From NCBI GenBank assembly GCA_016763285.1, contig JAESUC010000259.1, positions 1-40,970 of the forward strand: a stretch of DNA of 40,970 nt. Reading direction: 5' to 3'. This DNA is from Pseudomonas sp. (GTDB lineage Bacteria > Pseudomonadota > Gammaproteobacteria > Pseudomonadales > Pseudomonadaceae). Every line of letters begins with the position of its first letter. Position 1 is the first letter of the stretch. The position numbers were made by a program, and so were the translations under genes. The notes under the pieces were generated by a model. It was not told the DNA's origin and did not search any database. It saw only the letters and a program-made list of their open reading frames with translations. Shown in pieces: positions 26,398 to 36,411 of this stretch.

Positions 26398-26444
26398 TCC
26401 TGTTAATGCTAAACTTCGATTCTATTCATGTAGAGGGCAGGACC

Positions 26445-27374
26445 ATGCTGGAAATACGTCATTTGCGCACCCTGGTTACCCTGCGCGAGGCTGAAAGCCT
26501 GGTGGAGGCCGCTGAAAGGCTGCACCTGACCCAATCGGCCCTGTCCCATCAGATCAAGGATCTGGAGGAGCGCCTCGGCCTGCCCCTGTTCGCCCGCAAG
26601 AGCAAGCCGGTGCGTTTCACCAGCGCCGGACTACGCCTGCTGCGTCTGGCTGACAACATCCTGCCTCAGTTGCGCCAGACGGAACGGGACCTGCAACGCC
26701 TGGCCGGCGGCCAGGCCGGGCGCCTGCACATGGCCATCGAATGTCATAGCTGCTTTCAGTGGCTGATGCCGACCATCGATCAGTTCCGCAATGCCTGGCC
26801 GGAGGTAGAGGTGGATTTTGCTTCGGGCTTCTTCTTCGCTCCCCTGCCCGCGCTGGCCCGGGGCGAGCTGGATCTGGTGGTAACCTCCGACCCCCAGGAG
26901 ATTGCCGGCATCAGCTACGTCCCTTTATTTGCCTACGAGGCCATGCTGGCGATCAGCAACCAGCATCCGCTGATCAACCGCAACCATGTCGAAGCGTCGG
27001 ACCTGCAGGAAGAAACCCTGATCTGCTATCCGGTGGATCGCGACCGCCTCGACATCTTTACCCAATTTCTGGACCCCGCCGGTGTCCAGCCTGCGGCGAT
27101 ACGCAACGCTGAACTGACAGTGATGATGATGCAGCTGGTGGCCTCGGGCCGAGGGGTCTGCTGCCTGCCCAACTGGGCCATGGCCGAGTACCTGCAACGC
27201 GGCTATGTCAGCGCCAGACCCCTGGGCGCCGAAGGTCTGTTCGGCACGCTGTACGCGGCGGTGCGCGAGGACATGCTGGAAATGTCCTATCTGCAGGACT
27301 TCCTGCTCACCGCCAAGGACATCTCGTTTGCCACCCTGGAAGGCGTCAGCGCAAAGATAAACAAAAGGCCATAA
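26445..27374 (+). CDS. metR: LysR-type regulator MetR
   Basis: A 309-residue LysR-family regulator. The winged helix-turn-helix (about 1-60) reads EIRHLRTLVTLREAESLVEAAERLHLTQSALSHQIKDLEERLGLPLF in outline. The effector domain (about 90-300) contains IECHSCFQWLMPT, GELDLVVTSD and ETLICYPVDRDRLDIF, all closely matching E. coli MetR. It activates metE and other methionine genes with homocysteine as coregulator. ATG 26445 with AGAGGGCAGG upstream is chosen over an in-frame start 39 nt earlier that lacks homology. The stop lies in an inverted repeat (27371-27394). Confidence 0.93.
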   Translation: MLEIRHLRTLVTLREAESLVEAAERLHLTQSALSHQIKDLEERLGLPLFARKSKPVRFTSAGLRLLRLADNILPQLRQTERDLQRLAGGQAGRLHMAIECHSCFQWLMPTIDQFRNAWPEVEVDFASGFFFAPLPALARGELDLVVTSDPQEIAGISYVPLFAYEAMLAISNQHPLINRNHVEASDLQEETLICYPVDRDRLDIFTQFLDPAGVQPAAIRNAELTVMMMQLVASGRGVCCLPNWAMAEYLQRGYVSARPLGAEGLFGTLYAAVREDMLEMSYLQDFLLTAKDISFATLEGVSAKINKRP

Positions 27375-27511: not shown

Positions 27512-29377
27512 ATGCGTTCTTGCGCCCGAACGACCGATTGCCCATCCCACGTCCTATCCCGCCCGGTGCTATCCACCCTCGCCCTCGCCATTGTCGGATC
27601 GCTTACGCTGACCGGCTGCCTTGGCGGTGATGGCGGCCCCAGCAGCAATATCACTCCGGCCGGTCAGATCAGCCTGGCCAACGGCGCCGTGCAGGGTGTA
27701 GTCGAGGATGACGTGCTGGTCTGGCACGGCCTGCCCTACGCCCAGCCTCCCGTAGGCGACCTGCGCTGGCGCGCACCGCAACCCGTCGAGGACTGGACCG
27801 GCGTGCGTGACGCCACCCAGCGGCATTCCGAATGCGTCCAGGCTGAAACGACCAGCCAATGGCAGCGGACCTCGAACATGGTCGGCAGTGAAGACTGCCT
27901 GATCGTCGACGTATATCGACCCAACCGCGCCGACTATCAGGACGAGAAGCTTCCCGTCTATGTATGGATCCACGGCGGCTCGAACAATTTTGGTACCGCA
28001 AAACAGTACGACGGGCGCAATCTGGTCGAGAACTCCGATGTGGTCATGGTGGTGGTGCAGTACCGCCTCGGGCCGCTCGGCTGGTTCTTCCATCCCGACG
28101 TACAAACCGGCGGTGCCGACCCGGTCTCCGATTCCGGCAACTTCGGCACGATGGACACCGTTCAGGCGCTGAAATGGATCCAGGCCAACATCGCCGAATT
28201 TGGCGGCGACCCGGACAACGTCACCATCACCGGCGAGTCTGCCGGCGCACACAACGTGCTCAATCTCATGGTCTCACCCGAGTCAGGCAATGGCCTGTTC
28301 CACCAGGCTGTCTCCCAGAGCGGTGCCATGACCACGCGCAGTACCAGCAATGCGCGCAATTCCGCCAATAGCCATATCGAGTGGCTGATCCGGCTGCTGG
28401 AGGATCGCAAGACACCGGGCACCCCGATCACTGCCGCCCAGGCCACGCAAATGCGTCTGGACATGGAAGCGGCTGGCACCCTCGAAACCTACCTGCGCGC
28501 AGCCGAGGGTCGCGATCTGTACCAGGCGGTCTTCAACTACAGTTCCCTGAGTTCCTATGGCGCTATCGAGGACGGCACAGTGATTCCTGCCGGCGGCTGG
28601 ATCCCCGCGTTTACCAGCGGCAACTTCAATAACGTGCCCGTGATTCTCGGCGCCAACGAATACGAACAAAAGTCGTTCATGCCGCTGTACGGCGGTGCGC
28701 TGAAGGGCGCGACCGGCACCATACCGTCTGCCGCCGGCAAGAGCTGGCTGGACTTGCTGGATGTGGCCTTTACCGGCAACCAGACCCTGGACGAGGTACT
28801 GCCGACACAAAAGGACAAGGACACCTACGAGGTGACCGGCTACCACGGCGGCCGAGCCTGGCGGGCAAAGTATGTGGACGAACTGGCCCGTCTGATCACC
28901 CAGCATCAGCCTGACACCTATGCCTATGACTTCCGCTGGGGAACGCAGTCAGGACCCTCTCCCTTCAACTTCATCTATGGTGCCGGCCATGCCGCGGAAA
29001 TCTCGTTTTTCCATGGCATCGGCGAAGGTCTGTTCAGCCTGCCCTTTACCGAGCAGAACCGGCCCGGTCGGGAAGCGCTGCAGAACGCGATGATGGATTA
29101 TCTGGCGGACTTCTCCCGCGGCGGCAATCCCAACGGCCAGTTCAGCCAGAACGAGCTGACCTGGCAGCCGTGGTCCAGCGCAGCGGGCGCAGATAAAGTC
29201 ATCGTGTTCGATGCCACCGATGCTGCTACCGATATCAGCATGTCCAACGAGGAGTTGACACTTGGCGGCGTGAATACCGCCTGGACAGCAGCGATGACCA
29301 ATATTGGTCTGGGTCCGGTGGAACAGGGCACACTGCGCGCCTTCTTCGGCCAGTCGGCGGCTTACTCCAACCCCTGA
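27512..29377 (+). CDS. type-B carboxylesterase, lipoprotein
   Basis: A 621-residue carboxylesterase/cholinesterase-family enzyme. The signal peptide ends in lipobox LTGC with Cys36, so the enzyme is probably membrane-anchored outside the cytoplasm. Family signatures are SEDCLIVDVYRP (126-137), the oxyanion-loop WIHGGSNNFG (152-161) and the nucleophile elbow GESAGAHN (Ser243). The triad is completed by Glu383 (GANEYEQ) and His493 (GAGHAAEI). It hydrolyses carboxylic esters; the natural substrate is unknown. ATG 27512 follows AGGAGA. A strong terminator follows, so it is probably its own unit at the head of the ester-hydrolase island. Confidence 0.9.
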   Translation: MRSCARTTDCPSHVLSRPVLSTLALAIVGSLTLTGCLGGDGGPSSNITPAGQISLANGAVQGVVEDDVLVWHGLPYAQPPVGDLRWRAPQPVEDWTGVRDATQRHSECVQAETTSQWQRTSNMVGSEDCLIVDVYRPNRADYQDEKLPVYVWIHGGSNNFGTAKQYDGRNLVENSDVVMVVVQYRLGPLGWFFHPDVQTGGADPVSDSGNFGTMDTVQALKWIQANIAEFGGDPDNVTITGESAGAHNVLNLMVSPESGNGLFHQAVSQSGAMTTRSTSNARNSANSHIEWLIRLLEDRKTPGTPITAAQATQMRLDMEAAGTLETYLRAAEGRDLYQAVFNYSSLSSYGAIEDGTVIPAGGWIPAFTSGNFNNVPVILGANEYEQKSFMPLYGGALKGATGTIPSAAGKSWLDLLDVAFTGNQTLDEVLPTQKDKDTYEVTGYHGGRAWRAKYVDELARLITQHQPDTYAYDFRWGTQSGPSPFNFIYGAGHAAEISFFHGIGEGLFSLPFTEQNRPGREALQNAMMDYLADFSRGGNPNGQFSQNELTWQPWSSAAGADKVIVFDATDAATDISMSNEELTLGGVNTAWTAAMTNIGLGPVEQGTLRAFFGQSAAYSNP

Positions 29378-29409
29378 TACGCGCTGGTCAACCAGTCGTA
29401 ACACCCAGA

Positions 29410-29433
29410 ACGGGGCCTTCGGGCCCCGTTTTT
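29410..29433 (+). terminator. intrinsic terminator of the carboxylesterase gene
   Basis: A perfect GC-rich stem CGGGGCC/GGCCCCG with a TTCG tetraloop (29411-29428) is followed by TTTTT. Confidence 0.93.
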
Positions 29434-29461
29434 CATGATACATATTCAATAACCGTCCCAT

Positions 29462-29479
29462 CACCCAATCAGGCGAGTT
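29462..29479. promoter_or_regulatory. 18-bp palindromic box upstream of hydrolase copy 1
   Basis: CACCCAATCAGGCGAGTT matches the box found before copies 2 and 3 at 14 of 18 positions, including the core AGGCGAGT. It ends 35 nt before the predicted leader hairpin, as in the other two copies. A protein-binding site is the simplest reading. Confidence 0.45.
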
Positions 29480-29514
29480 TCAATCTCGACGCCGAGGCAT
29501 ACATTCGATCGCGT

Positions 29515-29551
29515 CAGAGCACTGTTTTGGGCACCCAGTCATTGAGCTCTG
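29515..29551 (+). ncRNA. leader hairpin of hydrolase copy 1
   Basis: CAGAGC (29515-29520) pairs with GCTCTG (29546-29551), and ACTG (29521-29524) with CAGT (29536-29539) inside it. The stem ends 40 nt before the ATG, the same place as the better-conserved leader hairpins of copies 2 and 3, although the sequence differs. Confidence 0.35.
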
Positions 29552-29591
29552 TAGACACATACCAACAACAATAAGCACCGCAGGTAACACC

Positions 29592-30473
29592 ATGAACGCA
29601 TCATCTGCTTTCAAACTGACCGGCCTGGCCCTTGGCATGCTGCTCGCTGCCAACGCCCTCGCCAATAACCCCACGCCTACTCCGACCCCCACACCAACGC
29701 CTCCACCAGGCTCGGGTACCGCCTTCCCTTCAGTATCCGATTTCAGCCGCACGGCTTCCTTCGCGACCACCAGCGGCAACGCCGGTCCGAACTGCACCAT
29801 CTACCGTCCGCGCACGCTGGGCGAGGCCGGCCGTCGCCACCCGATCATTCTCTGGGGCAACGGCACCGGTAGTTCGCCGAGCACCTACAGCGCTCTGCTC
29901 ACCCATTGGGCCAGCCATGGCTTCGTCGTCGCAGCCGCACGCACTTCAAACGCCGGTTCCGGTGAAGAAATGATCGCCTGCCTCAACTACCTGGTTCAGG
30001 AAAACGGCCGCAGCAGCGGTACCTATGCGGGCAAGCTGAACGTGAACCGCGTCGGCACTGCCGGCCACTCCCAGGGTGGCGGCGGTTCGATCATGGCCGG
30101 TCGTGACGGCCGCGTTACCGTGACAGCACCCTTCCAGCCCTACACCATCGGCCTGGGTCATCGCAGCAGCTCGCAGAGCCAGCAGAGTGGTCCGATGTTC
30201 CTGATGACCGGCAGCAGTGACACCATCGCCGCGCCACGGACCAACGCACTGCCGGTGTTCAACAATGCCAACGTGCCGGTGTTCTGGGGTGAGCTACGCG
30301 GTGCCAGCCACTTCGAGCCCGTCGGTAACGCTGGCGGCTTCCGTGGTCCGTCAACCGCCTGGTTCCGATTCCATCTGATGGGCGACAACAGCGCACAGAG
30401 CACCTTCTACGGCAGCAACTGCCGTCTGTGTGGCGATCGTAACTGGGAAGTGCGCCGCAAGGGCATCAACTGA
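29592..30473 (+). CDS. secreted cutinase/PETase-superfamily alpha/beta hydrolase, copy 1
   Basis: A 293-residue secreted enzyme. A Sec signal peptide (cleavage after about Ala25, NALA-NN) is followed by a Pro-Thr repeat linker (27-39) and an alpha/beta-hydrolase domain. The triad is Ser160 (GHSQGGGGS), Asp210 (GSSDTIAAP) and His240 (GASHFEPVG). The order SHFxP, then STAWFRFHL, then a late Cys resembles actinobacterial cutinases (SHFAP.. VAWLKRF.. C). The C-terminal pair Cys277/Cys280 and Cys68/Cys130 could form disulfides. Polyester or lipid-ester hydrolysis is inferred, not proven. It is the most diverged of the three tandem copies; the closing RRKGIN is shared with copy 2. It has its own terminator. 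Confidence 0.88.
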   Translation: MNASSAFKLTGLALGMLLAANALANNPTPTPTPTPTPPPGSGTAFPSVSDFSRTASFATTSGNAGPNCTIYRPRTLGEAGRRHPIILWGNGTGSSPSTYSALLTHWASHGFVVAAARTSNAGSGEEMIACLNYLVQENGRSSGTYAGKLNVNRVGTAGHSQGGGGSIMAGRDGRVTVTAPFQPYTIGLGHRSSSQSQQSGPMFLMTGSSDTIAAPRTNALPVFNNANVPVFWGELRGASHFEPVGNAGGFRGPSTAWFRFHLMGDNSAQSTFYGSNCRLCGDRNWEVRRKGIN

Positions 30474-30497
30474 CAGCCGTAAGGCTGCTGTCCTGGA

Positions 30498-30526
30498 GGC
30501 CGGCCCGCAAGGGACCGGCCTTTTTT
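30498..30526 (+). terminator. intrinsic terminator of hydrolase copy 1
   Basis: GGCCGG (30498-30503) pairs with CCGGCC (30515-30520), with an inner CCC/GGG pairing, followed by TTTTTT. Confidence 0.92.
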
Positions 30527-30539
30527 GTGCGCGGGCTCA

Positions 30540-30562
30540 ATTGATCCGAAAATCGCATCAAT
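30540..30562. promoter_or_regulatory. ATTGAT-N11-ATCAAT operator-like repeat, copy 2
   Basis: Perfect 6-bp inverted arms with an 11-bp spacer. The same arms, spacing and relative position recur before copy 3 although most neighbouring bases differ, which suggests a binding site for a dimeric regulator. Confidence 0.45.
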
Positions 30563-30593
30563 AATCTATAAATCAAGATTCTGTCCCTATTTT

Positions 30594-30611
30594 CACCCGA
30601 ATAGGCGAGTG
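30594..30611. promoter_or_regulatory. 18-bp palindromic box upstream of hydrolase copy 2
   Basis: CACCCGAATAGGCGAGTG is an imperfect palindrome (CACYCG-N6-CGRGTG) identical to the box before copy 3 and 14/18 identical to that before copy 1. It lies 38 nt before the leader hairpin. Confidence 0.55.
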
Positions 30612-30642
30612 TTGACTGCCTTTGCCAAGGCTATATTCAAAG

Positions 30643-30683
30643 TCGCTTGGAGCCTGACAGTCGGCGACCCGCCAGAGGCTCGG
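30643..30683 (+). ncRNA. conserved structured leader, hydrolase copy 2
   Basis: A 41-nt block identical to that of copy 3 except at two positions. GAGCCT (30650-30655) pairs with AGGCTC (30676-30681), and an inner stem GGCG/CGCC (30663-30666 with 30670-30673) closes a 3-nt loop. Both substitutions fall in unpaired bases (30659 and loop base 30669). It ends 36 nt before the ATG. A cis-acting RNA is favoured; a DNA-binding site is the alternative. Confidence 0.5.
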
Positions 30684-30717
30684 GGATTCGAAAATAACAA
30701 ACTGAAGAGAGAGCATT

Positions 30718-31593
30718 ATGAAAAATTCAACTTTCAGATTGTCCAGCCTCGCCGCGGCCATGCTGATGTCGACCAGCGTCATGGCGTACACCCCAGCTCC
30801 AACACCCACTCCAACTCCGCCTCCGTCTGGCGGCGGCGGAGATTTCCCCTCCGTTTCCGATTTCAGCCGCTCCGGCCCCTTTGCTACCACCAGTGGTAAC
30901 GAAGGCCCCAGCTGTACCGTCTATCGTCCGCGCACCCTGGGTGCCGAGGGCCGTCGCCACCCGATCATCATCTGGGGCAACGGTACCGGCACCTCACCAG
31001 GAAGCTATGGCAGCCTACTGAATCACTGGGCCAGCCATGGCTTCGTCGTCGCCGCGGCACGCACGTCCAATGCGGGGTCCGGCACCCAGATGATCGACTG
31101 CCTCAATTACCTGGTGCAGCAGAACGGCCGCAGCTCCGGCACCTATGCAGGTCGACTGAACGTGAACCGGGTTGCCACCACCGGTCACTCCCAGGGTGGC
31201 GGCGGTTCCATCATGGCCGGTCGTGACGGTCGCGTTACCGTGACAGCGCCCTTCCAGCCCTACACCATCGGCCTGGGGCATCGTTCCAGCTCGCAGAGCC
31301 GTCAGAGTGGGCCGATGTTCCTGATGACCGGCGGCCGCGACACCATCGCTTCACCGACCTTCAACGCCTCTCCGGTATTCCGCAATGCCAACGTGCCGGT
31401 CTTCTGGGGTGAGCGCACCAGCGCAAGTCACTTCGAACCGATCGGCAACGGCGGCGACTATCGCGGACCCTCCACGGCCTGGTTCCGCTATCACCTGATG
31501 AATGATGGCAATGCCGAGAGCACTTTCTACGGCAGCCGCTGCCGTCTGTGCACCGACCGCGGCTGGGATGTACGCCGCAAGGGCATCAACTGA
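30718..31593 (+). CDS. secreted cutinase/PETase-superfamily alpha/beta hydrolase, copy 2
   Basis: A 291-residue secreted enzyme. The signal peptide is probably cut after Ala23 (VMA-YTP); a linker of Pro-Thr repeats ending in PPPSGGGG spans 24-41. The triad is Ser158 (GHSQGGGGS), Asp208 (GGRDTIASP) and His238 (SASHFEP). The base after the nucleophile is Gln, where cutinases and PETases have Met, and the region after strand 6 reads APFQPYT rather than the Trp-bearing PETase sequence. Cys66, 128, 275 and 278 are conserved in all three copies. It differs from copy 3 at 25 of 291 residues. GAAGAGAGAG precedes the ATG. The substrate is inferred to be a polyester or insoluble ester. Confidence 0.9.
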   Translation: MKNSTFRLSSLAAAMLMSTSVMAYTPAPTPTPTPPPSGGGGDFPSVSDFSRSGPFATTSGNEGPSCTVYRPRTLGAEGRRHPIIIWGNGTGTSPGSYGSLLNHWASHGFVVAAARTSNAGSGTQMIDCLNYLVQQNGRSSGTYAGRLNVNRVATTGHSQGGGGSIMAGRDGRVTVTAPFQPYTIGLGHRSSSQSRQSGPMFLMTGGRDTIASPTFNASPVFRNANVPVFWGERTSASHFEPIGNGGDYRGPSTAWFRYHLMNDGNAESTFYGSRCRLCTDRGWDVRRKGIN

Positions 31594-31618
31594 CATCAGG
31601 CCGTCGCCGATGACCGAA

Positions 31619-31646
31619 GGCTGACCCGCGAGGGTCGGCCTTTTTT
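31619..31646 (+). terminator. intrinsic terminator of hydrolase copy 2
   Basis: A 9-bp stem (31619-31627 with 31632-31640, one G-T pair) closes a GCGA tetraloop and is followed by TTTTTT. Confidence 0.93.
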
Positions 31647-31659
31647 CTGAGCGATCGCA

Positions 31660-31682
31660 ATTGATCTGAAAAACACATCAAT
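31660..31682. promoter_or_regulatory. ATTGAT-N11-ATCAAT operator-like repeat, copy 3
   Basis: The same arms and 11-bp spacing as at 30540-30562, in the same place relative to the preceding terminator and the 18-bp box. Confidence 0.45.
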
Positions 31683-31713
31683 AGAGACAATTACTTACTT
31701 ATGTCTCAAATTT

Positions 31714-31731
31714 CACCCGAATAGGCGAGTG
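31714..31731. promoter_or_regulatory. 18-bp palindromic box upstream of hydrolase copy 3
   Basis: CACCCGAATAGGCGAGTG, identical to 30594-30611, 38 nt before the conserved leader hairpin. The bases immediately upstream and downstream are poorly conserved between copies. Confidence 0.55.
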
Positions 31732-31762
31732 TCGCTCGGCTGACCCAAAGCTACTCTCAGGA

Positions 31763-31803
31763 TCGCTTGGAGCCTGACTGTCGGCGACACGCCAGAGGCT
31801 CGG
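31763..31803 (+). ncRNA. conserved structured leader, hydrolase copy 3
   Basis: Outer stem GAGCCT (31770-31775) with AGGCTC (31796-31801); inner GGCG (31783-31786) with CGCC (31790-31793). It matches the copy 2 leader at 39 of 41 positions, with changes only in predicted unpaired bases. The outer stem ends 37 nt before the ATG. Confidence 0.5.
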
Positions 31804-31838
31804 TGACTTGAACAACAATAAACTGAAGAGAGATCACT

Positions 31839-32714
31839 ATGAAAATGGCAACCTTCAAATTGTCCAGCCTCGCCGCTGCCCTGCTGATGTCAACCAGCGT
31901 CATGGCTTACACCCCTACTCCGACGCCCACTCCTACCCCGCCTCCATCAGGTGGTGGTGGCGATTTTCCATCCGTTTCCGACTTCAGTCGTTCCGGACCC
32001 TTCGCTACCACCAGCGGTAACGAAGGCCCCAGCTGCACCATCTATCGTCCGCGTACCCTGGGCGCCGAAGGCCGTCGCCACCCGATCATCATCTGGGGTA
32101 ACGGCACCGGTAGCTCCCCGGGTACGTATGCCAGCCTGCTGAATCATTGGGCAAGCCATGGTTTTGTTGTTGCCGCTGCACGCACCTCCAACGCGGGTTC
32201 AGGTACGCAGATGATCGATTGCCTGGACTATCTGGTGCAGCAGAACGGTCGCAGCTCCGGCACCTATGCGGGCAACTTGAATGTCAACCGGGTCGGCAGC
32301 ACGGGCCACTCCCAGGGCGGCGGTGGCTCCATCATGGCCGGTCGTGACGGGCGCATCACCGTGACTGCTCCGTTCCAGCCCTACACCATTGGCCTGGGCC
32401 ATCGCTCCAGCTCGCAGAGTCGTCAGAACGGACCCATGTTCCTGATGACCGGCGGCCGCGACACCATCGCCTCGCCGGGTGCAAATGCTGCACCAGTGTT
32501 TCGCAACGCCAACGTGCCGGTATTCTGGGGCGAGCTCAACAGCGCGAGCCACTTCGAGCCCGTGGGTAACGGTGGCGGCTACCGTGGTCCTTCTACCGCC
32601 TGGTTCCGCTTCCACCTGATGAACGATGGCAATGCCGAGAGCACCTTCTACGGCAGCCGTTGCGGCCTGTGTACCGACCGCGGTTGGGACGTGCAGCGCA
32701 AGGGCATCAACTGA
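31839..32714 (+). CDS. secreted cutinase/PETase-superfamily alpha/beta hydrolase, copy 3
   Basis: A 291-residue paralogue of copy 2 with the same layout: signal peptide to about Ala23, Pro-Thr linker, catalytic Ser158, Asp208 and His238, and Cys66, 128, 275 and 278. Differences from copy 2 cluster in surface-like or loop positions. Examples are 92-98 (SSPGTYA), 153-154, the stretch after the catalytic Asp (214-218, GANAA) and 233-234 just before the catalytic His. The last two flank the expected active-site cleft and could shift substrate preference. GAAGAGAG precedes the ATG. A strong terminator follows. The recent duplication is clear from both coding and leader conservation. Confidence 0.9.
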   Translation: MKMATFKLSSLAAALLMSTSVMAYTPTPTPTPTPPPSGGGGDFPSVSDFSRSGPFATTSGNEGPSCTIYRPRTLGAEGRRHPIIIWGNGTGSSPGTYASLLNHWASHGFVVAAARTSNAGSGTQMIDCLDYLVQQNGRSSGTYAGNLNVNRVGSTGHSQGGGGSIMAGRDGRITVTAPFQPYTIGLGHRSSSQSRQNGPMFLMTGGRDTIASPGANAAPVFRNANVPVFWGELNSASHFEPVGNGGGYRGPSTAWFRFHLMNDGNAESTFYGSRCGLCTDRGWDVQRKGIN

Positions 32715-32764
32715 TCAACTCAGTTTGATCAAAGCGCTTCTGGCATAATCAGCGCCAGCAATCG

Positions 32765-32797
32765 AAAGCCGGTTACCCTCGGGTAACCGGCTTTTTT
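32765..32797 (+). terminator. intrinsic terminator of hydrolase copy 3
   Basis: AAGCCGGTTACCC pairs with GGGTAACCGGCTT around TC, giving an 11-12-bp stem followed by TTTTTT. Confidence 0.94.
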
Positions 32798-32842
32798 GTA
32801 TCTGGGGTATGCTTCGTAATCGTTTAGCCTGGGAGAATAAGA

Positions 32843-33601
32843 ATGTCAGACAACCGCCCTGTCGCACTGGTCACCGGCGCCGGAAGCGGCATTGGCCGCG
32901 CTACCGCCCTTGCCCTGCTAAAGGCGGGCTACGCCGTGGTACTCGCCGGCCGCCGCGAAGCTTCGCTGGATGAGACTGTCGTCGCCGCGGGTGAGCTCGC
33001 CGCCCATGCCTTGGCAGTAGTGACGGACGTACGCAGCCCGGAATCAGTAGAGGCGCTGTTCAACGCGACGCGCGAGCGCCATGGCAGACTGGATGTGCTG
33101 TTCAACAACGCCGGCACCGGCGCGCCGCCGGTTCCCCTGGAAGAAGTCAGTTTCGCCCACTGGCAAGCTACCGTGGAGACCAATCTGACCGGCGCCTTTC
33201 TCTGTACCCAGCAGGCATTCCGCATCATGAAGAGCCAGCAGCCCATGGGCGGTCGCATCATCAATAACGGTTCGATTTCCGCCCATGCGCCCCGCCCGAA
33301 CTCGGCGCCGTACACCTCGACCAAACACGCGATGACCGGTCTGACCAAGTCCACTTCGCTGGACGGACGACGCTACAACATCGCCTGTGGTCAGATAGAC
33401 ATTGGCAATGCAGCGACCGAGATGGCTGCCCCAATGCAGCGCGGCGTACCCCAGGCCAATGGCGAGATGGCGGTGGAAGCTGTCATGGATGTGGAGCATG
33501 TAGCGCAGGCGGTGGTGCAGATGGCCAGCCTGCCACTGGAAAGCAATATCCAGTTCATGACCATCATGGCGACGAAGATGCCCTTTATCGGGCGCGGCTG
33601 A
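32843..33601 (+). CDS. SDR-family oxidoreductase
   Basis: A 252-residue classical short-chain dehydrogenase. TGAGSGIG is at 11-18, NNAG at 88-91, Ser144 in NGSIS, Tyr157 and Lys161 in YTSTK, and the post-catalytic segment reads [13 protein letters not shown]. Arg37-Arg38 after the second strand (LAGRRE) suggests NADP preference. It is preceded by GGGAGAA and transcribed alone between the copy 3 terminator and the convergent lipase. It could process an alcohol or aldehyde released by the ester hydrolases, but this rests only on location. Confidence 0.88.
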
Positions 33602-33666: not shown

Positions 33667-35541
33667 TTACTGTACGTTACGCTCCATGAATGCGAGCAGC
33701 GGATCGATTACGTTGTTGCTGGCATCGTCATCGGCAGCCAGCACGTCGTTATGCGAGTAGCCTTCACTCATGTGCACCTCGAAGCCGCCCTCCGGGCCAC
33801 CAAAGGTCGGGAAGGCGCTCAGATCATTGGCTCCGGCTAGCATTCTTGGCGTGATGCCGTCACAGCTGAGCGATGCACAGGGTGCAATGGCGTTGGCGAA
33901 GCTGCGCCAGATACCCGGCACCGGGGTCAGACCGTTGGTCCCACCGAAGCCGATGACCGGCACGTCGATCTGTTGTGCCTGGGTCTGGTTGACGATATCC
34001 GAGCGACCGCGCCCCCCCTGGCCCACCGGCAGCGACAGCGCGCTGGTATCCAGGCCCAGGTTGGCGCCACCGAGCGCCGCGTTGTTCCCGATCAGAAGAC
34101 CATAGGTCGGATAGTACCAGTCGCTGTAGTTGGTTTCGCCAACATACAGCGAGGGAACAAGGCGTCCCATGTTCACCGGCTCGGCCTCCACACCCCAGAA
34201 CAACTGCGGTGTAAGCAAGGTGGTCGGTGCCGGGCCGTTGTCGGTGAATGCTGATGCTGGCAGGGTCTGGTCGTTATCCAGCCACTCGACCAGACCATCT
34301 GCATTCAGCGAACCCAGCGCCCCCATCGAGAGATGGAAGAACTGCGGCGTCGGCTGATTATCGTCGTCCTGGAAGGTGGCCAGTGCCGCGCCCGCGGTGA
34401 CCGGGAAGGGTCGATCGTTATAGCCGGCCACCTGACCGTAGACGCTGTTGGGGGCGCCGTTGCGGTCCGGCCCGAATGCCTGCTGCAGTATGGCCTGCTC
34501 CCCGTTGATGGTGCCTTCAAACGCCATCTGCATTCCCAGCACCTCGCTCGACACCAACTGCTGTGGCCCCAGCCCTGGCGCATTGATATAGGAGCTGACG
34601 GTTCCGGCCTGTGCTGCGGCATATAGCCCACCGTCGGCCGCAGCTTCTACCGCGTCCAGCTCTGCCGGCGTTGGCGCTGTGGCCCGCAGCGAGCCCCCCT
34701 GCCCTTCAAACAGCACCAGCCCGCGTAGTTTCGCGTAACCTGGCTCCGGGGTACCGGTGTTGCTCAGATTGAAATCGGTGGCGGCATAGCGCGCAACAAA
34801 ACCGGTTCCGGCGGAGTGACCACCCAGAAACACGTTGCCGTTACGCGCCGCATCGCGTGCCAGCTCGACCACCACATCAATATCCCGGGAGAACACCTGG
34901 GGAGTCCAGTTGACCATGAAAGGCACATCGATCTGATCATAGAACACGGCACGTCGATCCAGCTCGGGGCTCAGCGGCAGATCGAGCTCGTCGCCAAACA
35001 GGAAGTTCACGGCCAGCAGGGCGTTCTTTTCTGCTTCGGCGATATTCAGACCGGTGGTGTCCTGCAACAGGACCGACCGGCGCTCGAATGCCCAGACTTC
35101 CACCACAGTGCCGCTGGCCTGCGCTTTGGCCATGAGATTCTCGGCCAGACGAAAATAATTGTGCGCACCGCCCAGCGTGCCAGGCACAGCAACCAGAATC
35201 GCGTCGGGCTGCAAGTTGGCCTGGTCGGCCAATGCGTAGCGGGTATAGCGCGCCTGATTCAAGTCCGCATCCGCGCCCAGATGGGTAATCAGTTTCGCAT
35301 TGGTGACCGTGACACCGGCCGTACCAGGCGTCTGGGCAGCTTTCGCCGGACTCGAGGTGGTCACGGTCTGTATGCACATGTCGTTCACCTGAACCGCACC
35401 GGCAATCGCATTGCAAGGCTCTGAGGACGGGATCGAACTGGAGGGGCCGCCGCCTCCGCCTGGCAAGCAACCTGCCAGGGCGACGCCAGCCGATAGCAGG
35501 GCGATAGCGCGGATGGATGCCGAGAGTCTGTTTACTCGCAT
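33667..35541 (-). CDS. large lipase-like alpha/beta hydrolase lipoprotein
   Basis: A 624-residue lipoprotein. Lipobox LAGC places the acylated Cys at 25, followed by a Gly/Ser-rich spacer. VPGTLGGAHNYFRLAENL (119-136) looks like the oxyanion region. The nucleophile is Ser243 in GGHSAGTGF, and a late SHNDVL supplies the likely catalytic His. The acid residue is not clear. Overall it resembles large bacterial cell-surface lipases and esterases (Pla-1/VolA-like), but I am not certain of the family. ATG 35541 is used because AGGAG lies upstream and the signal peptide begins there. It is divergent from the TetR-type gene (246-bp gap), which is the obvious candidate regulator. Confidence 0.82.
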   Translation of the reverse strand: MRVNRLSASIRAIALLSAGVALAGCLPGGGGGPSSSIPSSEPCNAIAGAVQVNDMCIQTVTTSSPAKAAQTPGTAGVTVTNAKLITHLGADADLNQARYTRYALADQANLQPDAILVAVPGTLGGAHNYFRLAENLMAKAQASGTVVEVWAFERRSVLLQDTTGLNIAEAEKNALLAVNFLFGDELDLPLSPELDRRAVFYDQIDVPFMVNWTPQVFSRDIDVVVELARDAARNGNVFLGGHSAGTGFVARYAATDFNLSNTGTPEPGYAKLRGLVLFEGQGGSLRATAPTPAELDAVEAAADGGLYAAAQAGTVSSYINAPGLGPQQLVSSEVLGMQMAFEGTINGEQAILQQAFGPDRNGAPNSVYGQVAGYNDRPFPVTAGAALATFQDDDNQPTPQFFHLSMGALGSLNADGLVEWLDNDQTLPASAFTDNGPAPTTLLTPQLFWGVEAEPVNMGRLVPSLYVGETNYSDWYYPTYGLLIGNNAALGGANLGLDTSALSLPVGQGGRGRSDIVNQTQAQQIDVPVIGFGGTNGLTPVPGIWRSFANAIAPCASLSCDGITPRMLAGANDLSAFPTFGGPEGGFEVHMSEGYSHNDVLAADDDASNNVIDPLLAFMERNVQ

Positions 35542-35787
35542 TGTGATCTCCTGACCCGGCCTGACCGGGTATATTTTTGTATTTGTTCGGACACAGCACA
35601 ATTACGCTACCAGTCTCTTCCGGCGCTGGCTTGAATCAATTTGCAGATCAGGCTTGCATACATCTTAAAACGATAAAAAGCCCGCCGGACAGATGAAAAA
35701 CTTGATGAATCACCATCGGGACACTTCTAATCTTGGTATCGATGTTGCTACTATGCATCACGCCATACAATTTGCGGATTAGAAACC
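35542..35787. promoter_or_regulatory. divergent control region of the lipase and TetR genes
   Basis: 246 bp, markedly more AT-rich than the flanking genes. It holds the lipase ribosome site, a stem ACCCGG-N5-CCGGGT beside an ATATTTTT stretch (about 35554-35577) in the lipase leader, and a short palindrome TTGAATCAA (35631-35639). A weak TACTAT (35749-35754) lies upstream of the TetR gene. No convincing -35/-10 pair stands out. An operator is expected here. Confidence 0.45.
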
Positions 35788-36411
35788 ATGAGTAACCAAC
35801 CGACCCCCCTCTCGCTGGCACTGTCGCAGCGCAAGTCCGATGAACGTGCCACCCCCATGACTGCCTTTCGCATGGCTCGCCGCTGGTGGCTGGAAGGCCG
35901 CAGGCTCAACCTGTCGCTGCTGGCGGAGGAGCTCGGCGTGGGTCGCGCTACGCTGATGCGCTGGGTGGGCAACAAGGACCTGCTGATGGGAGAGATTCTC
36001 TGGTCCGAGTACAAGCGTCTCTACGACGAGGCCATCGAGCGTGCCCAGTCAGATCCGAAACTCAAGGGAATTGATTTCCTGGCGCAGATCTACACCGACA
36101 TCAACGTCGCGCTGATCAATGCCAGACCCATGCACGATTTCATGCGCGCGGAACCACAATGGGGTCTGCAGCTTCTGACGTCCAACGTCTCCGGCCTGCA
36201 GAGCAGACTGATCGAGACCTGGCGCAAGCTGTTTGAAGAGCAGATTCAGGCCGGCACGATCAATCCCGAAATGGACGCCGACAGCCTGGCCTACTTCATC
36301 ATCCGTATCGGTGAAGGTGCGATTTACTGCGATCTGATCTGTGGACGCACGCCAAATCCCGAGCCCGCCAGCACCGCGTTCCGTCTGCTGGTCAACGGCC
36401 ATACCCGCTAG
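35788..36411 (+). CDS. TetR-type transcriptional regulator (possibly QsdR family)
   Basis: A 207-residue regulator. The N-terminal helix-turn-helix (about 42-66) reads LSLLAEELGVGRATLMRWVGNKDLL, and the C-terminal ligand-binding part is all-helical with LAYFIIRIGEGAIYCDLI (about 172-189). The overall pattern recalls the QsdR group of TetR regulators, but this is from memory. TetR proteins are usually repressors of a divergent gene and respond to the substrate or product of the encoded enzyme; here that is the lipase-like lipoprotein. Its TAG stop overlaps the stop of the opposing sensor kinase gene by sharing CTAG (36408-36411). Confidence 0.85.
   Translation: MSNQPTPLSLALSQRKSDERATPMTAFRMARRWWLEGRRLNLSLLAEELGVGRATLMRWVGNKDLLMGEILWSEYKRLYDEAIERAQSDPKLKGIDFLAQIYTDINVALINARPMHDFMRAEPQWGLQLLTSNVSGLQSRLIETWRKLFEEQIQAGTINPEMDADSLAYFIIRIGEGAIYCDLICGRTPNPEPASTAFRLLVNGHTR

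Follow-up and report, generated by a model that had tools for sequence, protein, structure and literature searches.

Tandem type III PETase genes of a Halopseudomonas-group genome share one conserved promoter element and look like a jointly switched set

The type III class of polyethylene terephthalate (PET) hydrolases (PETases) was defined in 2025 on HaloPETase1, and its hallmarks are shifted disulfide cysteines, none of them beside the active site, and the lack of an aromatic clamp (PMC12442448). Active-site loops 1-3 of the HaloPETase1 shape and PET hydrolysis that is best at high salt also belong to the description of the class. Type IIa PETases carry the lipase box GWSMG and an aromatic clamp (PMC12442448). 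This report concerns three tandem genes for type III enzymes, and the promoter element that precedes each of them, in a stretch of 40,970 nucleotides hereafter called the window (contig JAESUC010000259.1 of assembly GCA_016763285.1, Pseudomonas sp.). The closest described relatives are HaloPETase1-4 (PMC12442448; PDB 9hl5), which are of the same family and genus group as the window enzymes and share with them the lipase box GHSQG, the shifted cysteines and the absence of an aromatic clamp. HaloPETase2-4 all originate from the metagenome-assembled genome (MAG) of H. sabulinigri HyVt-376, and all three degrade PET (PMC12442448). The Pseudomonas mendocina lipase PmC (PDB 2fx5), which is PCLase I of P. 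hydrolytica (PMC8971842), belongs to the same family and has the same catalytic architecture. R75estA, from another genus (Stutzerimonas sp. R75), has been described with type III features and hydrolyses bis(2-hydroxyethyl) terephthalate (BHET) and PET microparticles (PMC13396203). The main text on HaloPETase1-4 contains no mention of tandem genes, paralogs, regulation, promoters or copies, its supplement lying outside the scope of this comparison, and the main text on R75estA contains none of tandem genes, paralogs, operons or regulation. Among the matches listed in the open-access literature, judged by titles and the starts of abstracts and with subscription papers and supplements outside the search, no paper addressed tandem arrays of type III genes or the way in which they are regulated. 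Insofar as these sources cover the subject, the enzyme family is already known and the shared promoter control is the new part.

All three window copies matched PF12740 (PET hydrolase-like) above the cut-off. Their nearest solved structures were 9hl5 (HaloPETase1), 9k0h, 9w68 and 2fx5 (PmC), with E values between 4e-128 and 4e-114; in the search with copy 3, every chain beyond these four gave an E value of 2.5e-16 or weaker. The catalytic triad, Ser158-Asp208-His238 in copy 3 numbering, is invariant across the three copies, as are cysteines 66, 128, 275 and 278, which are offset by 2 from the C64-C126 and C273-C276 pairs of HaloPETase1 (disulfides predicted). Thr90, Gln159 and Tyr182 are also present in every copy and correspond to Thr88, Gln157 and Tyr180 of HaloPETase1 subsite I, with no aromatic clamp; the landmark residues that were checked all sit at this constant offset of 2. 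The GHSQG box was found in 78 of the 78 sequences of the tree described below. By sequence, the three enzymes are type III PETases of the PmC/HaloPETase1 group, and thereby new members of the class named in 2025. A first-pass annotation of the window had correctly recognized three tandem hydrolases of the cutinase/PETase superfamily with a conserved Ser-Asp-His triad; the type IIa PETases that it named among the groups for comparison were rejected as the family, given GHSQG in place of GWSMG, the shifted cysteines and Thr90 at the position of the aromatic clamp. Three remoter homologues elsewhere in the same genome (contigs C116 and C161; 33-38% identical) are, by analogy with the genus, probably its type IIa set.

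The three open reading frames (ORFs) run head to tail on the forward strand, as given by the ORF listing of the window, and span positions 29592-32714. Copy 1 (29592-30473) has 293 codons, and copies 2 (30718-31593) and 3 (31839-32714) have 291 codons each. Pairwise alignment gave 25 differing residues of 291 between copies 2 and 3, the same count as in the first-pass annotation, and copy 2 is the nearest relative of copy 3. Copy 1 shares 78% identity with copy 3, and its alignment to copies 2 and 3 shows 65-67 differences over 291 positions. Read by eye, the N-termini of the three copies appear to be Sec signal peptides. A Pro-Thr stretch, previously called a linker, was found in all three copies. 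Just 4 of 51 Halopseudomonas-group sequences have at least three [TA]P pairs within residues 16-50, so that the stretch does not characterize the family. A terminator-like stem-loop followed by a T run was found by folding after copy 1 (30495-30523), copy 2 (31616-31643) and copy 3 (32764-32795), all on the forward strand. Of these, a simple terminator scanner detected only that of copy 3 on this strand; it reported 2 sites in all, fewer than the shuffle mean of 3.7. The carboxylesterase gene upstream likewise ends in a stem-loop (29407-29432). With such structures after each copy and after the carboxylesterase gene, the cassettes look insulated from one another and from their left neighbor, and each PETase gene looks like a self-contained cassette of promoter, leader, gene and terminator.

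One rigid promoter design precedes all three copies, consisting of TCACCC-N4-AGGCGAGT near -43.5 followed by TAnnnT. The conserved element lies at 29458-29481 in front of copy 1 (CCATCACCCAATCAGGCGAGTTTC), at 30590-30613 in front of copy 2 and at 31710-31733 in front of copy 3, and the predicted -10 hexamers are TACATT (29500-29505), TATATT (30632-30637) and TACTCT (31752-31757), respectively, all on the forward strand. Within the element is an imperfect inverted repeat, TCACC-N6-GGYGA, centered near -43.5 if TAnnnT is the -10, a numbering that is assumed. Copies 2 and 3 share an identical sequence, CACCCGAATAGGCGAGTG, located 124 and 125 bases, respectively, ahead of their start codons, and 22 bases around the element are identical between these two copies. 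Allowing up to three mismatches, CACCCGAATAGGCGAGTG had 2 matches in the window against 0.04 expected; copy 1 carries a variant with four mismatches, 130 bases upstream. A scan of positions 28500-33500 for sigma-70 consensus promoters returned none, against a shuffle average of 1.4, which lends weak support to a missing -35 hexamer. The promoter may thus be described as a sigma-70-like -10 at fixed spacing from an inverted repeat, and the element near -43.5 together with the lack of a recognized -35 suggests the layout of a class II activated promoter. This layout is known from established activator classes.

The element is concentrated at type III genes. Its core, ACCCNNNNAGGCGAST, occurred three times in the window's own genome (an assembly 79.9% complete), once per copy, and the reversed-pattern control occurred once. 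In a genus sample of 37 genomes that includes this one, 32 of the 63 hits to the core lay within 300 bases upstream of type III genes, and the remaining 31 were fewer than the 65 hits of the reversed control. A longer pattern, TCACCCNNNNAGGCGAGT, was searched in 148 genomes of the family. The 19 genus genomes contributed 11 hits, spread over 7 of them, and 10 of these hits were at type III genes; the 129 genomes outside the genus contributed 8 hits, in 8 genomes. A first position weight matrix (PWM) was then built from 46 upstreams chosen from 76 by resemblance and position. A gene was taken as scorable if it had an ORF of at least 250 residues and 180 bases of upstream sequence, and the PWM threshold was 12. 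All scorable Halopseudomonas-group genes scored 12 or more; their distinct upstreams number 56, including two that belong to dispersed copies in loci L023 and L025. The 27 entries below 12 were 26 genes from outside the group and one wrongly started copy on a contig labelled Colwellia maritima (L013), in which the element lies inside the ORF as called. A second PWM, trained on 25 promoters (the window and L007-L020) and tested on 31 others, gave scores of 11.4 to 36.0 for the held-out promoters. Over 18 loci it scored 12 or more at 32 of 366,894 positions, of which 27 were type III promoters and 5 lay elsewhere; these 27, which include 8 training promoters, come from a total of 29 promoters in the 18 loci. 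When the 56 distinct genus upstreams were aligned without gaps, TA stood at a single fixed distance in 50 of them and all 56 had T at -7, and little was conserved between the element and TAnnnT. No element was found at the type IIa-like loci L004-L006, where the best score was 7.4. The type III genes fetched from Pseudomonas and Stutzerimonas differ from the window genes in that, within their flanks, they lack both the element and a nearby TetR gene of the kind described below, and all are single except for a trio in P. mangrovi.

A type III gene was present in 35 of the 37 genus genomes and was not found in G025 or G031. No adjacent pair was found in 21 genomes, two adjacent copies in 6 and three in 8, so that arrays of two or three adjacent copies occur in 14 of the 37; an additional dispersed copy was found in G017, G021 and G030. 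The genome of H. sabulinigri HyVt-376, a sister species (L020, same coordinates as G019), carries three type III genes in tandem, and this trio is almost certainly HaloPETase2-4. Because HaloPETase2-4 come from a MAG with only three type III genes, all in tandem, a tandem trio of this kind has probably already been tested and found active. Compared with that trio, the window array combines a first-position gene with two sister copies and lacks any gene of the third-position clade. The tree was built from 78 proteins, with 26 duplicate or contained rows left out. Copy 1 grouped with genes from the first array position in other species, in a supported set of five (96/94), and the L013 gene from the Colwellia-labelled contig joined copies 2 and 3 in a set of three (100/99). 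A 12-row clade (100/99) contained the third-position array genes plus some second-position, single and dispersed ones, with no member from the window, and the second-position genes of other species formed no single supported clade. From this placement, copy 1 split off before copies 2 and 3. By the same tree, at least part of the array predates these species, and the pair made up of copies 2 and 3 is specific to its lineage.

Copies 2 and 3 are under purifying selection, with a dN of 0.049, a dS of 0.851 and an approximate dN/dS of 0.06 (NG86); dN/dS between copy 1 and the other two was 0.16-0.17. As a dS of 0.85 is near saturation, the pair is not recent, and the earlier view of copy 1 as the older gene stands only in the sense that it separates first in the tree. 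Copies 2 and 3 are about equidistant from the L013 gene (dS 1.12-1.13, close to saturation), which fits a duplication after the split from that gene. Gene conversion between copies 2 and 3 was considered and rejected, as the differences are spread along the gene and form no tract. In subsite II, copy 2 carries Thr92 and Ser96 where the published Halopseudomonas set has A/S/G and T/G (PMC12442448).

The same element at the same spacing on every copy does not support the earlier suggestion that the copies are separately controlled, although the part of that claim that made each gene its own transcription unit agrees with the promoter-like and terminator-like sequence found at each. Rather than three enzymes under different control, the copies appear to form a set that is switched jointly. 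The reading we prefer, at a probability of about 0.7, is that these are secreted type III PETases with a shared promoter design and one regulator that switches all copies. Outside the cell, the enzymes would use the Ser-Asp-His triad to hydrolyse the ester bonds in insoluble polyesters or long esters; one regulator, probably class II activator-like, would bind the element and switch all copies together; and the tandem copies would raise the dose and add modest differences in specificity. Several points weigh against this reading. The motif was first spotted in the window, the upstreams of the first PWM were picked by resemblance and position, and only upstreams that scored at least 12 with that PWM made up the 56. 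The held-out promoters include near relatives of the training ones and hence are not independent. Five positions scoring at least 12 fall outside promoters, two of them being opposite-strand readings of a promoter site, and the strict 14-base pattern was found in just 7 of the 19 genus genomes of the family sample. Sites are weak in G002 and G011 (12.4 and 11.4 with the two PWMs), and the element at the third copy in L009 is degenerate (18.0). Expression, activity on polymers and start sites are predictions, so that the -10 numbering is assumed; dN/dS is only approximate at a dS near saturation; and the Thr92 and Ser96 changes in copy 2 leave room for functional divergence.

As to which regulator would read the element, the leading linked candidate is a TetR-family gene (TetR_C_36) at 35788-36411 on the forward strand, an assignment that we make only tentatively. 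Its nearest solved relative is 4za6, QsdR (E 2.6e-15 over residues 29-198), with which it shares a near-identical helix-turn-helix stretch, GRATLxRWVGN. QsdR, a TetR protein, represses the qsd lactonase operon of Rhodococcus and is released by the lactone ring of signal molecules, and its ligand residues Glu90 and Arg96 were predicted by docking (PMC6262395). These align with Ile and His in the window TetR (counted by hand, with chain numbering assumed), so its ligand probably differs from that of QsdR. By analogy, the TetR dimer could cover the -35 region of the three promoters as a repressor and be released by a hydrolysis product, a possibility that we place well short of even odds. The repeat of 18-22 bases suits a TetR dimer. 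The genus genomes with the TetR gene are the same 35, out of 37, in which a type III gene is present; TetR lies 176-3263 bases from such a gene in all 35 and was not found in G025 or G031. At an E value of 1e-45 it was found in 19 of 19 genus genomes of the family sample and in 0 of the 129 others, and the element likewise scored inside the group only; the RstB-like kinase that flanks the locus shows lower specificity, with 104 of the 148 family genomes carrying it. Against this model, no element was found in the 289 bases before the TetR gene itself, and the missing -35 and rigid spacing suggest activation. G025 and G031 also lack an orthologue of the flanking kinase, and in G025, a genome just 75% complete, a metR match is missing as well, so the joint absence may reflect a single block loss or the incompleteness of G025. 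More distant TetR homologues (349 phylum genomes, E 1e-15) comprised two from outside the family and within the same order, 43-44% identical; two genus genomes also contain paralogues at 36-38% identity. The fetched flanks of these four (L120-L123) contained no element, the best PWM score being 4.5. A search of plasmid records with TetR or a QsdR fragment gave no match. The main rival to TetR is an unlinked class II activator, of LuxR or CRP type for example, with TetR adjacent by shared locus descent only. The position of the element near -43.5, its fixed spacing from the -10 and the lack of a sigma-70 consensus argue for such an activator, to which we give a little less than an even chance; it has no candidate gene, and a regulator encoded elsewhere ought to act on further targets, whereas the off-target hits do not exceed the control. 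Two other neighbors were dropped as regulators. A two-component system was set aside as the RstB-like kinase is not specific to the group, and MetR as it has a match, with one internal stop, in G031, which has no type III enzymes; the known site of MetR also differs from the promoter element.

It was also suggested in the first-pass annotation that the copies serve different expression or substrate ranges, that is, that they are subfunctionalized. The first-position genes, copy 1 among them, and the third-position genes of several species form separate clades, which points to paralogues that have long been kept. Copy 1 is also well separated from copies 2 and 3 at the residue differences given above, and Thr92 and Ser96 of copy 2 fall outside the sets listed for the genus, which leaves some support for a difference in substrate range. 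Every copy, however, carries the same element at the same spacing. The dN/dS of 0.06 between copies 2 and 3, approximate as it is, favors retained function, and such strong constraint suggests dosage; copy number varies from one to three within the genus, as dosage predicts; and HaloPETase2-4 all act on PET (PMC12442448). The low dN/dS and the activity of HaloPETase2-4 favor redundancy or dosage, and we consider subfunctionalization unlikely.

The locus has a common order in the genus: metE, metR, sometimes a carboxylesterase gene, one to three PETase genes, often a short-chain dehydrogenase (SDR) gene, the TetR gene and the RstB-like kinase gene facing back. In the window, the usual left border is a MetR-like LysR regulator (26406-27374, forward strand) that scores below the NCBIfam MetR cut-off, followed by a carboxylesterase-family gene (PF00135; 27434-29377, forward strand) that is present in only a few relatives. 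The SDR gene between the array and TetR (32843-33601, forward strand) is found in some relatives and not in all. Between SDR and TetR, a 644-residue ORF on the reverse strand (33667-35601) had no sequence match in Pfam, NCBIfam or PDB; homologues 65% identical to it lie at the equivalent place in L091 and L092. On the Colwellia-labelled contig (L013, NZ_JAKKSL010000008), a carboxylesterase-PETase-PETase-SDR segment matches the window locus at 81-90% identity; some of its genes are split across frames, and contamination or mis-assembly seems likelier than transfer. The P. mangrovi trio (L027, 5959-9573) is a separate tandem set of type III PETase-like genes outside Halopseudomonas and has no promoter element (PWM 8.2 or less).

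Further occurrences of the element were observed away from the array. The type III copies outside the array locus in L023 (5880) and L025 (5881) carry a more symmetric form, TTTACCCAATCGGGTGAGA. In the window's own genome, a site with one mismatch (L107; G000:C268:11784-11801; PWM 20.8) lies between genes that by eye are acyltransferase-like and Lnt-like. Eight off-target hits were noted in relatives, with PWM scores of 15.7-25.1 in five, and no clear functional link was seen in the three with inspected ORFs. The 5' leaders of copies 2 and 3 (30644-30683 and 31764-31803) are identical at 38 of 40 bases though dS between the genes is 0.85. A conserved RNA structure in the leader, for which GAGC...GCTC stems had been seen by eye, was rejected, as covariation was no higher than in shuffles: across 30 leaders chosen from the 56 (29 distinct), 61.2% of cells were paired against 59.5%, and 79 of 500 shuffles were as high. 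The paired cells did exceed those of slid versions, as such a structure does anyway. Folding of single leaders gave z values of 0.27, -1.50 and 0.36, and the one Rfam match in 29300-32850 lay inside copy 3, below the gathering score (20.3 against 40 bits).

A known enzyme family thus appears to have an unexpected and testable layer of control. To our knowledge, the control of environmental PETases is largely unstudied. The shared promoter accounts for how copies in tandem could behave as a single unit, and biosensors could make use of it. As a tentative proposal, held with less than even confidence, Halopseudomonas may have a small, dedicated polyester-hydrolase regulon in which a class II-type promoter on the array copies is read by the flanking TetR, as activator or repressor, that senses a breakdown product of polyester or cutin. 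A PETase regulon read by TetR would be the first regulatory circuit that we know of for this enzyme class and, if true, a ready-made sensor. With a rigid element across the genus and one linked candidate regulator, both the control and the natural substrate of the type III enzymes become testable, and the inducer would point to the natural polymer.

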